This document shows, one piece after another, positions 9,731-19,690 of a DNA stretch of 64,000 bases; the stretch's first letter is position 1, and each line of letters opens with the position of its first letter. The translations under genes and the position numbers were made by a program. The DNA comes from Pontibacter sp. G13 (GTDB taxonomy: Bacteria > Bacteroidota > Bacteroidia > J057): contig NZ_CP134696.1 of NCBI RefSeq assembly GCF_031851795.1, positions 7,378,001-7,442,000 on the forward strand, read 5' to 3'. The notes under the pieces are model-generated. The model was not told the DNA's origin. It ran no database searches and saw only the letters and a list, made by a program, of their open reading frames with translations.

Positions 9731-10456
9731 ATGACAAGCAGACAGGACGTGGTACGCATCCTCCGTTCCGGCCATCGACTTTACCTGACGGCCCTTCCTT
9801 TTCTCCTCTATTTTGCCATTGGCGTTGCTGCACCGAGATATTTCGGTGTAATGGCCATTTTTGGTTGGCTCGTGGGATTGATCTATTCCCTCATGGTCAT
9901 GAAAAGCTACCAGGCCACCCAGAGCCTTTCCGGTGCGATTCGAACGCTTGCCATGGTTCCCCTGATCCTGCTGGGCAAACAAATGGTGGTGGGTTCAGAC
10001 TGGGCGTTTTACATCATTGAGTTGTCAATCGTGGAAATTGGTGCGCTTATGTTCACCTTGATCATCGTGATGGCAGCAGGGATGGACCGGGACAATTTCG
10101 GAATGGTGATATTGGGTTTTTTGCTCATCGTAGGATTCTCTGTCGCGGTACTTTGGGCGCTTGGTGCCATTTACCTAGAGGAAGAAGGCGGAATACTGAG
10201 CCTGGGGATGGTTTTCCTCATTTGGGCGTTCGTCTCAGCGTTTGGCAAATATCTTCCCTATCTCGCCTATGAAGCCGATATTGATCGTTGGGTGGACTGG
10301 TATACGGATCGCTTTGGAGAGCCGAAGTGGATGAAGTCTACCGAAAGTGTCGAGCTTTGGCCCGCTGAAATCAATGATGACAATCCTGCCCCGATCCTTC
10401 TTTATATGCTTTTCTGGCTGGTCATCGGCCCCATCCTTTTCGCCATGTTCCATTGA
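9731..10456 (+). CDS. Multi-pass membrane protein of unknown function
   Basis: I do not recognise the family. The 241-residue protein has about six hydrophobic segments, for example LTALPFLLYFAIGVA, YFGVMAIFGWLVGLIYSLMV, LMFTLIIVMAAG, MVILGFLLIVGFSVAVLWALG and PILLYMLFWLVIGPILFAM. A charged stretch with aromatic residues (YEADIDRWVDWYTDRFGEPKWMKS) lies before the last segment. The next gene starts 6 bp later and encodes a protein of the same size and layout, so the two are probably a tandem pair acting in the inner membrane. It is preceded by a candidate -7 element. Confidence 0.6.
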   Translation: MTSRQDVVRILRSGHRLYLTALPFLLYFAIGVAAPRYFGVMAIFGWLVGLIYSLMVMKSYQATQSLSGAIRTLAMVPLILLGKQMVVGSDWAFYIIELSIVEIGALMFTLIIVMAAGMDRDNFGMVILGFLLIVGFSVAVLWALGAIYLEEEGGILSLGMVFLIWAFVSAFGKYLPYLAYEADIDRWVDWYTDRFGEPKWMKSTESVELWPAEINDDNPAPILLYMLFWLVIGPILFAMFH

Positions 10457-10462
10457 TCAGTC

Positions 10463-11209
10463 ATGAAATCTAATTTTTCTTGGCAGCAGTTTGGTGCTGT
10501 CATTTATCCGCATGTCCTGTCTGTTCATCGATTGGGACTATTGGTGCTCCCTTTTGGGGTGTTTGCAGGACTTTCCAGAATCCTTCCCGATCGATTTCTA
10601 CTCATATGGATCGTGGGTGGCCCTGTGGCACTCATGTACGGGATGCTGCTCTGGATGAGCTATCGGCCTTCTCACCGTTCCGGAATCACGGTGTTGAAAG
10701 CGATTTTTGTACCCATGCTGATTTTGGGCTGGACGATTGCTTCTCACAAGCATTGGGGCCACTTTATCAGCGTCTGGGGATTGCTCGAAATGGGGGCAAG
10801 CTTCGGGGTGTGGGGAATCTTGTTGGTCGTTTCGAGGAGGATTCGGACGCATCGGTGGTTGGGCGGGCTACTACTGGTTTGCGCAGGTGTGCTGTTCATG
10901 ATCTGCCTTTGGGGATGGCTCCTTGAATTTGAACTCCGCCCCGGACAAATCTGGTTGATAGCTGCGATCATCATGGCGGGTATTCAATATGGAAGTTTTT
11001 TGATGACCGGTGGGCTTCCGCTGATCGCTCGTATGAATGCTCCCATCATGAACCGTAAAACGTTGCCGGATCTGGATGATTCCCTACAACTTTGGCCCAG
11101 CGGAGGGTGGTTTACCCAATCCGATGGAATTCCCGCATTGGCTTACTTGGCCATTTGGTTGGGGTTGATTCCGGCTATCCATGCCTTGATCAATCTGCTG
11201 GGTGGATAG
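10463..11209 (+). CDS. Multi-pass membrane protein, probable partner or paralogue of the preceding gene
   Basis: A 248-residue hydrophobic protein with about six membrane segments, starting 6 bp after the previous stop. Shared features with the upstream protein are size, segment spacing, an N-terminal amphipathic start, a SLQLWP / SVELWP motif (LDDSLQLWPSGGW against STESVELWPAEIND) and the final PALAYLAIWLGLIPAIHAL / PILLYMLFWLVIGPILFAM helix. I infer an ancient tandem duplication. No known functional motif was seen. Confidence 0.58.
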   Translation: MKSNFSWQQFGAVIYPHVLSVHRLGLLVLPFGVFAGLSRILPDRFLLIWIVGGPVALMYGMLLWMSYRPSHRSGITVLKAIFVPMLILGWTIASHKHWGHFISVWGLLEMGASFGVWGILLVVSRRIRTHRWLGGLLLVCAGVLFMICLWGWLLEFELRPGQIWLIAAIIMAGIQYGSFLMTGGLPLIARMNAPIMNRKTLPDLDDSLQLWPSGGWFTQSDGIPALAYLAIWLGLIPAIHALINLLGG

Positions 11210-11411
11210 GAGGGTGGTTTTGTGGAGTCAATCTAGTGGATAGGGGTCGATCATATCCTTGTCGCTCTACAAATGAGTCCGTGTGTAGATGGGCGATAAT
11301 TTCATTGACTTGACAACGATCTGTCGTTCTAGCACATCGGAAATATGTGCGTTTAATTTTTTCGTCTAAAAGCTTGCATATCCCAAAATGGCTGCACACA
11401 TTTGCGGCGTA

Positions 11412-11513
11412 ATGAAACGGAACACTCCATATATCACCCTCCTTAACCTCGCCTTCGGCGAAGGGGTGTCCCGTGTACACCACGTACATCACCATTTCCA
11501 TCATTCCTCCTAG
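11412..11513 (+). CDS. hisL: Histidine operon leader peptide
   Basis: ATG at 11412, stop TAG at 11511-11513, 33 residues. Seven of nine residues near the C-terminus are His (HHVHHHFHH, codons 23-31), read from mixed CAC and CAT codons. It lies about 150 bp before hisG, the first gene of a complete his operon. Known his leaders (for example of Escherichia coli) carry a run of His codons where the ribosome stalls when charged tRNA-His is short. The family has no protein function beyond being translated. It is too short for standard ORF calling. A chance run of seven His in nine residues directly ahead of hisG is very unlikely. Confidence 0.88.
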   Translation: MKRNTPYITLLNLAFGEGVSRVHHVHHHFHHSS

Positions 11514-11526
11514 GAGGAATATTTTT
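11503..11526 (+). promoter_or_regulatory. Palindrome with T-tract at the end of hisL
   Basis: ATTCCTCCT followed by AGGAGGAAT forms a perfect 18-bp inverted repeat (stem of seven with a CTAG loop), then ATTTTTA. It starts inside the last His codon and covers the stop codon, so a ribosome at the end of hisL would mask it. It may be a terminator or pause hairpin. Confidence 0.45.
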
Positions 11527-11666
11527 ATACATATCACCCCCAGCGGGTCCCGTACCCGATTTCCATGATTTTTCCATGCGAACTAGACTGAGTATCAGTA
11601 TGATCTCGGGCGATACGTTGTACTCGATTTTTCCTTATTTTTTCTATATTCCCAAATTCCAATACC

Positions 11667-12527
11667 TTGGAACCTGTATTGAGATTGGCAGTCCAAAAGT
11701 CCGGACGCCTGGCTGAAAGAAGCCTCGAATTCATCAAGGAATGTGGCATCGCATATTCCCGCAACAAGGCAAAACTTAAAACGACTGCCTATAATTTCCC
11801 CCTCGAATTATTGTTCCTCCGAGATGATGATATCCCCAAATACGTGGCCTCCGGAGTCGCAGATATTGGGATCATCGGAGAAAATGTCTTGGCGGAAAAG
11901 GAACAATCGGTCGAATTGGTCGAGCGCATGGGATTTTCCAAATGCCGCCTTTCCGTCGCAGTGCCGCAAAATGGTGAATACCCCGGAATCCAAAGTCTGG
12001 AGGGAAAGAAAATTGCCACCTCCTATCCGAACCTGCTCAAAAACTTCCTCGCCAAACAAGGGGTTACAGCTGACATCCACGAGATTTCAGGCTCTGTCGA
12101 GATTGCGCCAAGTATAGGATTGGCGGATGCCGTCTGTGACCTCGTTTCCACAGGTTCTACCTTGCTGAGTAATGGCTTGAAGGAAGTGGAGGTGATTTTC
12201 CGCTCTGAAGCTGTCATGATCGCCCAGCAGAATCTTGCCCCCGAAAAGCAGGCGATTCTGGACGACCTGCTCTTCCGCATCAAAGCGGTTCTCCGCGCTG
12301 AGGATTACAAATATGTGTTGATGAATGTCCCCAATGATTCTATCGATCAAGTCGTGGGATTGATCCCCGGGATGAAAAGCCCAACCATCACACCATTGGC
12401 GGATTCTGGCTGGTCTTCGCTACATTCTGTGATCAAGGAGGATGACTTCTGGGAAGTCATTGACAACCTCCGCAAAGCCGGTGCGCAAGGGATTCTTGTA
12501 GTGCCGATCGAAAAAATGATCTTGTAA
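11667..12527 (+). CDS. hisG: ATP phosphoribosyltransferase (long form)
   Basis: First enzyme of histidine synthesis: condenses ATP with PRPP to phosphoribosyl-ATP. The protein has 286 residues, including the C-terminal ACT-like regulatory domain (KSPTITPLADSGWSSLHSVI), so it is the long, self-contained, histidine-inhibited form without HisZ. Motifs include LRLAVQKSGRL at the N-terminus and the PRPP-binding region DLVSTGSTLLSNGL. No in-frame ATG exists between the upstream stop (11601-11603) and the conserved N-terminus, so TTG at 11667 (or TTG at 11679) is the start. It leads the operon behind hisL. Confidence 0.96.
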   Translation: MEPVLRLAVQKSGRLAERSLEFIKECGIAYSRNKAKLKTTAYNFPLELLFLRDDDIPKYVASGVADIGIIGENVLAEKEQSVELVERMGFSKCRLSVAVPQNGEYPGIQSLEGKKIATSYPNLLKNFLAKQGVTADIHEISGSVEIAPSIGLADAVCDLVSTGSTLLSNGLKEVEVIFRSEAVMIAQQNLAPEKQAILDDLLFRIKAVLRAEDYKYVLMNVPNDSIDQVVGLIPGMKSPTITPLADSGWSSLHSVIKEDDFWEVIDNLRKAGAQGILVVPIEKMIL

Positions 12528-19060: not shown

Positions 19061-19690
19061 TGTCATCCAGAACGCCCATTGCCTCGGCCTGTGTGTCGGC
19101 GGTCGATTCAGGATCTCAGGCGCTCTCCGGCTCAAAACCCCACTTCCTGTCATCCTGAACGTCCATCGCCTCGGCTTGTGTGTCGGCGGTCGATTCAGGA
19201 TCTCAGGCGCTCTCCCGGTCAAGAACCCCACTTCTTGTCATCCTGAACGTCCATCGCCTCGGCCTGTGTGTCGGCGGTCGATTCAGGATCTCAGGCACTC
19301 TCCCGCTAAAGAACCCCACTTCTTGTCATCCTGAACGTCCATCGCCTCGGCCTGCGTGTCGGCGGTCGATTCAGGATCTCAGGCGCTCTCCCGGTCAAGA
19401 ACCCCACTTCTTGTCATCCTGAACGTCCATCGCCTCGGCCTGTGTGTCGGCGGTCGATTCAGGATCTCAGGCACTCTCCCGCTAAAGAACCCCACTTCTT
19501 GTCATCCTGAACGTCCATCGCCTCGGCCTGCGTGTCGGCGGTCGATTCAGGATCTCAGGCGCTCTCCCGCTAAAGAACCCCACTTCTTGTCATCCTGAAC
19601 GTCCATCGCCTCGGCCTGTGTGTCGGCGGTCGATACAGGATCTCAGGCGCTCTCTGGCTCTCCGGCTCAAAACTCCACTTCTTGTCATCC
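19061..19690 (+). repeat. Tandem array of 87/88-bp repeats, array 1
   Basis: Seven units begin TGTCATCC at 19061, 19148, 19236, 19324, 19412, 19500 and 19588, and a partial eighth begins at 19683. Each unit has facing arms ATCCTGAA and TTCAGGAT enclosing about 40 bp with an inner CGCC/GGCG pair, then a linker ending in CCCCACTTC. Units alternate between two variants (CCTGCG/CCTGTG, GGTCAAG/GCTAAAG), which suggests duplication in blocks of two. Open frames across it are by-products of the repeat. The following 228 bp to the next gene hold no recognisable feature. Confidence 0.85.

Follow-up and report, generated by a model that had tools for sequence, protein, structure and literature searches.

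A histidine leader peptide upstream of hisG in Pontibacter sp. G13 and a terminator-less his leader type, possibly Rho-dependent, in Bacteroidia

The window, a 64,000-nucleotide stretch of DNA from Pontibacter sp. G13 (NZ_CP134696.1, positions 7,378,001–7,442,000, forward strand), contains a histidine operon with the gene order hisG, D, C, B, H, A, F and IE. The hisG gene is present in a single copy in the whole genome. A short ORF with tandem His codons, as expected of a leader peptide, lies directly upstream of the operon and downstream of an unassigned gene ending at 11209. The features of the region are as follows.

11374–11404 (+): candidate promoter of the Bacteroidota type, with TTG at 11374–11376 (−33) and CACATTTG at 11397–11404 (−7)
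11412–11513 (+): hisL-like histidine leader peptide ORF of 33 aa, from translation, conservation and statistics
11478–11504 (+): putative regulatory His-codon run HHVHHHFHH, 7 His in 9 codons, from translation; kept in relatives
11503–11520 (+): P1 hairpin AUUCCUC-CUAG-GAGGAAU, whose loop contains the stop codon, conserved in 58 leaders
11521–11529 (+): spacer of 9 nt (8–9 nt in the type), T-rich here (ATTTTTATA) and not in most relatives
11530–11539 (+): conserved motif CATATCACCC, consensus of the type CATATNGYCC, without a conserved pairing partner
11544–11558 (+): P2 hairpin CGGGU-CCCGU-ACCCG, pair probability about 0.9, with covariation
11521–11666 (+): untranslated region 5′ of hisG with 26% C and 14% G, candidate Rho-loading region by composition
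11667–12527 (+): hisG with TTG as start codon, opening hisGDCBHAFI(E) (TIGR00070, TIGR03455)

The ORF at 11412–11513 encodes the peptide MKRNTPYITLLNLAFGEGVSRVHHVHHHFHHSS, followed by a stop codon. Its seven His in nine residues, described already in the sequence-only reading, agree with the translation of 11478–11504. The six frames of the window contain one such cluster; 100 first-order Markov copies of the window contain none, and six His in nine residues occur twice in them. An alternative in-frame ATG at 11388 would extend the leader to 41 aa; the 33-aa form is preferred because this ATG is located 5′ of the promoter-like −7 element. The distance to hisG, earlier given as about 150 bp, is 153 nt from the end of the leader stop to the TTG at 11667. 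The N-terminus of HisG from this TTG, L-E-P-V-L-R-L-A-V-Q, aligns with the ATG or TTG starts of relatives. Pfam and NCBIfam searches with the leader peptide gave no match.

We searched the regions 5′ of hisG in 128 loci sampled across Bacteroidia for His-rich ORFs, defined by at least four His in eight residues. They were present in 100 of the 128 loci on the sense strand and in 0 of 128 in the antisense control. This search of related genomes, which the sequence-only reading had proposed as a check, bears out its hisL assignment, and there is good support for identifying 11412–11513 as a histidine leader peptide. Predicted His leaders are common in much of Bacteroidia.

Bacteroidota mostly lack Shine-Dalgarno sequences. 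The −7 element of the window, CACATTTG, is located 7 nt 5′ of the leader ATG and has one mismatch to the Bacteroidota consensus TAnnTTTG (PMC9723704); a relative (L019) carries TATATTTGCGGCGTAATGAA at the equivalent place. Additional sampling in two families enlarged the set to 187 leaders, 145 of which have TAnnTTTG at most 25 nt 5′ of an in-frame leader start, most commonly at a distance of 7–10 nt. Because the element is so close to the start codon, transcription probably begins a few nucleotides before it, in the window at about 11408–11411. For the same reason a transcription start downstream of the ORF, which would have spoken against a leader, is unlikely. Very short mRNA 5′ ends are rare among those mapped in Bacteroidota, at 3.7–5.5% (PMC7366714, PMC9723704).

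Two architectures are found among the his leaders of Bacteroidia. Type A, present in most lineages, is composed of a His run, an antiterminator complementarity, and a GC hairpin with a T-tract, with a median of 55 nt from the last His codon to the terminator. The intervening stretch pairs with the 5′ arm of the terminator (mean −10.2 kcal/mol vs −6.3 kcal/mol for shuffled sequences, p 1e-14), and type A is predicted to act by classical, textbook attenuation. Type B comprises 58 leaders from three families, f1 (including the window), f21 and f53; the count includes five f21 leaders with a divergent motif (L062, L065, L067, L068 and L070). The type B peptide ends in HH-x-HHSS-stop, and P1 overlaps this end; in most of the leaders a gap of 8±1 nt and the unpaired CATATNGYCC come next, and then P2. 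The window leader has all of these elements: P1 with the stop in the loop, a 9-nt gap, the motif CATATCACCC, and P2.

The overlap of the leader end with a perfect palindrome, pointed out in the sequence-only reading, is exact. The palindrome ATTCCTCCTAGGAGGAAT at 11503–11520 reaches from the end of the last His codon through the two Ser codons and across the stop, and in RNA form it gives a 7-bp stem with the loop CUAG, which contains the UAG stop. In 54 of the 58 type B leaders, the P1 loop contains or adjoins the stop codon. All 56 of the type B leaders with an HSS ending use CAT for the last His (other His codons: 171 CAT, 57 CAC; 171/228), and all 56 use TCC for the first Ser. The second Ser codon is TCT, TCG or TCC (TCC in 16/56), and its third base falls in the P1 loop or at the stem end. 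Since the paired third codon bases of P1 are invariant and the unpaired ones are not, selection acts at the RNA level. Two HHLS-ending leaders (L062, L070) have a compensatory change of both P1 arms, CUCUC/GAGAG; the rest of P1 is nearly invariant, and classical covariation is therefore confined to these cases and the stem ends. A role of the palindrome as a DNA operator was rejected, because the loop length ranges from 3 to 6 in type B and the codon bases follow the pairing, both of which favor RNA. A genome-wide signal was rejected as well: other copies of TTCCTCC-GGAGGAA in the family genomes are mostly within coding genes, and none was recognized as another leader. In some f53 leaders (L208, L210, L212, L234, L263, L266, L268, L269, L271 and L273) the ORF continues through the P1 region, as in HHYHHSSRGE and HHHHHSSPGEE, so that the hairpin is partly or wholly within the ORF; the motif is altered or absent in these variants.

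P2 is positioned at a near-fixed distance from the motif and can form in 53 of 58 leaders, vs 107 of 290 shuffled copies. Its letters differ between leaders while complementarity is kept (CGGGU/ACCCG, CGGUG/CACCG, GGCUGU/ACAGCC, GGGGC/GCCCC). No conserved pairing partner of CATATNGYCC was found across type B, and the motif was rejected as an antiterminator segment, since partners upstream or downstream were not enriched over shuffles in five clades. The further alternative pairings that the sequence-only reading had noted exist in the window, where GGGGTG at 11463 can pair with CACCCC at 11535 and UAUCaCCC at 11532 with GGGcGAUA at 11608, but they are not conserved in relatives. The long-range GGGGTG/CACCCC helix was rejected; L015 could form a similar helix, L010 and L013 could not. 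In f21 loci such as L191, L193 and L205, CATATCG can pair with CGTATAT just 5′ of hisG in the alignment fold, a pairing not seen in clades other than f21.

A covariance model of P1 and the motif, which included only the last His codon and was trained with the window excluded, identifies the window leader as the top match in its 7.7-Mb genome (48.5 bits, E 2.1e-9); the next independent match there scores 18.6 bits. In 396 Bacteroidia genomes, all seven matches at E ≤ 1e-5 are located just upstream of hisG; as six of these leaders had been used in training, it is the window itself that provides the held-out test. Weaker matches, with E between 5e-4 and 1e-2, include hisG leaders among others.

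In an approximate HisG tree (FastTree, many open forks), one group contains all type B leaders and another contains type A. A canonical terminator, that is, a GC-rich hairpin with a T-tract between the leader and the first gene, is present in 1 of 62 leaders of the window's HisG clade vs 16 of 16 in the other, the sequences being related and not independent. Several members of type B families, L016 in the window's family and L184, L190, L194 and L201 in f21, combine a second-group HisG with a type A leader, which suggests that the whole operon was replaced together with its leader. Leader type thus tracks the operon and not the organism, and the pattern suggests that the two move or descend together. 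Two loci of family f70 (L060, L063) have a hisG of the type B lineage and at most three His in eight residues upstream; their leader seems to have been lost or moved.

We folded 11407–11560 and 11407–11640 with the footprint of a ribosome masked. The pair probability of P1 is 0.91–0.96 without a ribosome and 0.94–0.97 with one on the first His codon; it is weakened to 0.08–0.55 with a ribosome at the codon at 11490, and P1 is lost with a ribosome at the end of the His run or at the stop. A ribosome at the first His codon would leave P1 free, and gating is therefore not tight for the window leader. The His run of type B begins at a median of 17 nt 5′ of P1, so a halted ribosome would usually cover the 5′ arm, and gating would be tighter in relatives. 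In this folding model, P1 is best read as a sensor of the ribosome having left.

The untranslated region after the leader is C-rich and G-poor, as expected by composition for Rho-dependent termination. In type B, the RNA after P1 has C 0.252 and G 0.159, and C minus G is 0.093 vs −0.008 in the upstream control of type B genomes (p 1e-9) and 0.018 in other leaders; C-richness alone is not proof of Rho loading and is confounded with lineage composition. Because type B has no canonical terminator and the genome contains a rho gene, Rho-dependent termination is the putative end step that we prefer. No antiterminator pairing with a terminator 5′ arm was found in type B. The sequence-only reading had suggested that the mechanism may differ from that of Escherichia coli, and in substance this holds for type B, which lacks the usual terminator and has kept the hairpin that spans its last His codon and stop.

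We hypothesize that the leader acts by ribosome-gated his attenuation of an undescribed, possibly Rho-dependent variant, a reading to which we give a little under an even chance. The transcript would start just before the AUG, and a ribosome would translate the 33-codon peptide. When charged His-tRNA is plentiful, the ribosome would cross the His run, terminate at the stop codon within the loop of P1, and leave. P1 would then fold and hide its G-rich strand, C-rich, G-poor, ribosome-free RNA would be exposed, and transcription would be terminated ahead of hisG, probably by Rho. Under a shortage of His-tRNA, the 5′ arm of P1 would be covered by a ribosome stalled in the later part of the His run; P1 could not form, and the polymerase would continue into hisGDCBHAFI. 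We infer histidine sensing by the leader, the gating of P1 by the ribosome and, above all, Rho as the terminator. CATATNGYCC has no assigned role in this model. More broadly, and with distinctly less than even confidence, type B may be a second undescribed class of Bacteroidota amino-acid leaders, in which a ribosome-controlled P1-spacer-motif-P2 RNA decides hisG transcription without an intrinsic terminator, via Rho or via contact of a factor or the polymerase at the motif.

P1 and a U-rich tail could instead form a weak intrinsic terminator, with a ribosome on the last His codons blocking the folding and causing read-through by pyrBI-type occlusion. Such a terminator is conceivable in the window, because P1 with ATTTTTATAC is terminator-like: it is one of two such sites in 11200–11720 (shuffles 0.3) and the only one that a scan downstream of the leader found. 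L010 and L013 carry TATTTTTTA 3′ of P1. The sequence-only reading had taken the P1 hairpin itself for the terminator, a claim without support, as the U-tract occurs in the window and a few relatives and is missing in most type B leaders. Most of the 58 keep P1 yet lack a T-run 3′ of it (as in ACTACTAC, AACAACAA and CCAATTAA), and we rejected P1 as the intrinsic terminator of type B generally. The stem is moreover only 7 bp long with three G-C pairs, and a ribosome at the stop also blocks P1, so that histidine excess would need very fast release. We consider this explanation unlikely.

The chances of a classical four-segment attenuator, in which P1 would serve as the 1:2 hairpin and the antiterminator-controlled terminator would be P3, a hairpin just 5′ of hisG with a U-rich tail, are slim. 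Hairpins with loosely U-rich tails precede hisG in 38 of 58 leaders vs 29 of 116 shuffled copies, L013 has a fair hairpin of the P3 type, and type A leaders clearly behave so. The window candidate at 11611–11626 has, however, a pair probability of 0.03, no conserved antiterminator partner was found in type B, the tails are poor, and canonical terminators are absent. P3 as a later terminator was set aside as weak and not stable in the window.

It is improbable that P1, CATATNGYCC and P2 form a two-hairpin RNA, folded under ribosome gating, that is bound by a protein or affects RNA polymerase directly in the manner of the put or EAR processive antitermination RNAs. The fixed P1-8 nt-motif-P2 spacing in 58 leaders and the conserved unpaired motif without a partner argue for it, but no factor of this kind is known. 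Translational control, with or without polarity, in which leader translation would alter the folding around the start of hisG, is very improbable: such uORFs exist (toiL, PMC12121999), the hisG start is about 100–150 nt 3′ of the leader stop, and f21 offers the pairing just before hisG described above, but type B as a whole showed no conserved pairing with the hisG start. A chance His-rich ORF without a regulatory role is refuted in practice by the conservation in 100 of 128 loci, the covariance match, the invariant codons and the Markov statistics.

The leader for which we propose ribosome-gated attenuation resembles enterobacterial hisL (RF00514) in its short ORF with a His run 5′ of hisG, the compact his operon, and the hairpin at the ORF end. 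It differs in lacking a canonical terminator, in placing its stop codon within the loop of the hairpin, in the CATATNGYCC motif, in a nearly leaderless start and in having no Rfam match; RF00514 (His_leader) did not match the window leader up to E 5. Rfam assigned no family to the leaders tested, one Thr_leader score on a type A leader being under threshold. Bacteroid-trp (RF01691) is a predicted amino-acid leader of Bacteroidota; unlike the window leader it is a Trp leader, and the leaders tested had no Rfam family match. tnaC is a ribosome-gated, Rho-linked leader. In E. coli toiL, likewise Rho-linked, the position of the leader ribosome decides early transcription end (PMC12121999), as proposed for the window. 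Unlike for tnaC and toiL, the case for Rho in the window comes only from composition and the missing terminator, and sensing would use His codons. Leader-peptide attenuation has been proposed for amino acid operons of Flavobacterium psychrophilum (PMC9723704). These and type A leaders share with the window the place, the His run and TAnnTTTG before the start. The window type has neither the antiterminator of type A nor its GC hairpin with a T-tract, which in type A follows the last His codon at about 55 nt. His attenuators of the Bacillus cereus group, Peptostreptococcaceae and Erysipelotrichales, found by comparison, also have a His-rich peptide before the his operon, but they belong to a different phylum and are described with terminator and antiterminator hairpins (PMC9413887).

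The regulation of histidine synthesis in Bacteroidota has hardly been described. A text search of a 2021 survey of Bacteroidota his genes (PMC8305728) returned no leader and one mention of attenuation, for enterobacteria. Leader peptides in Bacteroidota are merely hinted at elsewhere (PMC9723704, PMC7366714). We found no paper on type B; a 2010 attenuation survey by Lopatovskaya and colleagues, cited in PMC4833913, may list some his leaders of the phylum. Type B is an undescribed leader type, and our claim of novelty is limited to it. His leaders span much of the class, and the distribution of the textbook and the terminator-less type follows the HisG lineage. If type B acts via Rho or a motif-binding factor, it would be a distinct solution to the sensing of His-tRNA.

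The surroundings of the operon have features of their own. Upstream of the his leader, two consecutive genes, 9731–10456 and 10463–11209, encode proteins of 241 and 248 aa; neither product has a Pfam match, and that of 10463–11209 also has no NCBIfam match. A terminator-like hairpin at 11332–11350, GCACATCGGAAATATGTGC followed by GTTTAATTTT, lies downstream of the preceding gene and upstream of the his promoter. Just 3′ of the operon, a tandem array at 19061–19654 is composed of 6.8 copies of an 88-nt unit with 95% matches, and yields spurious ORFs on both strands.
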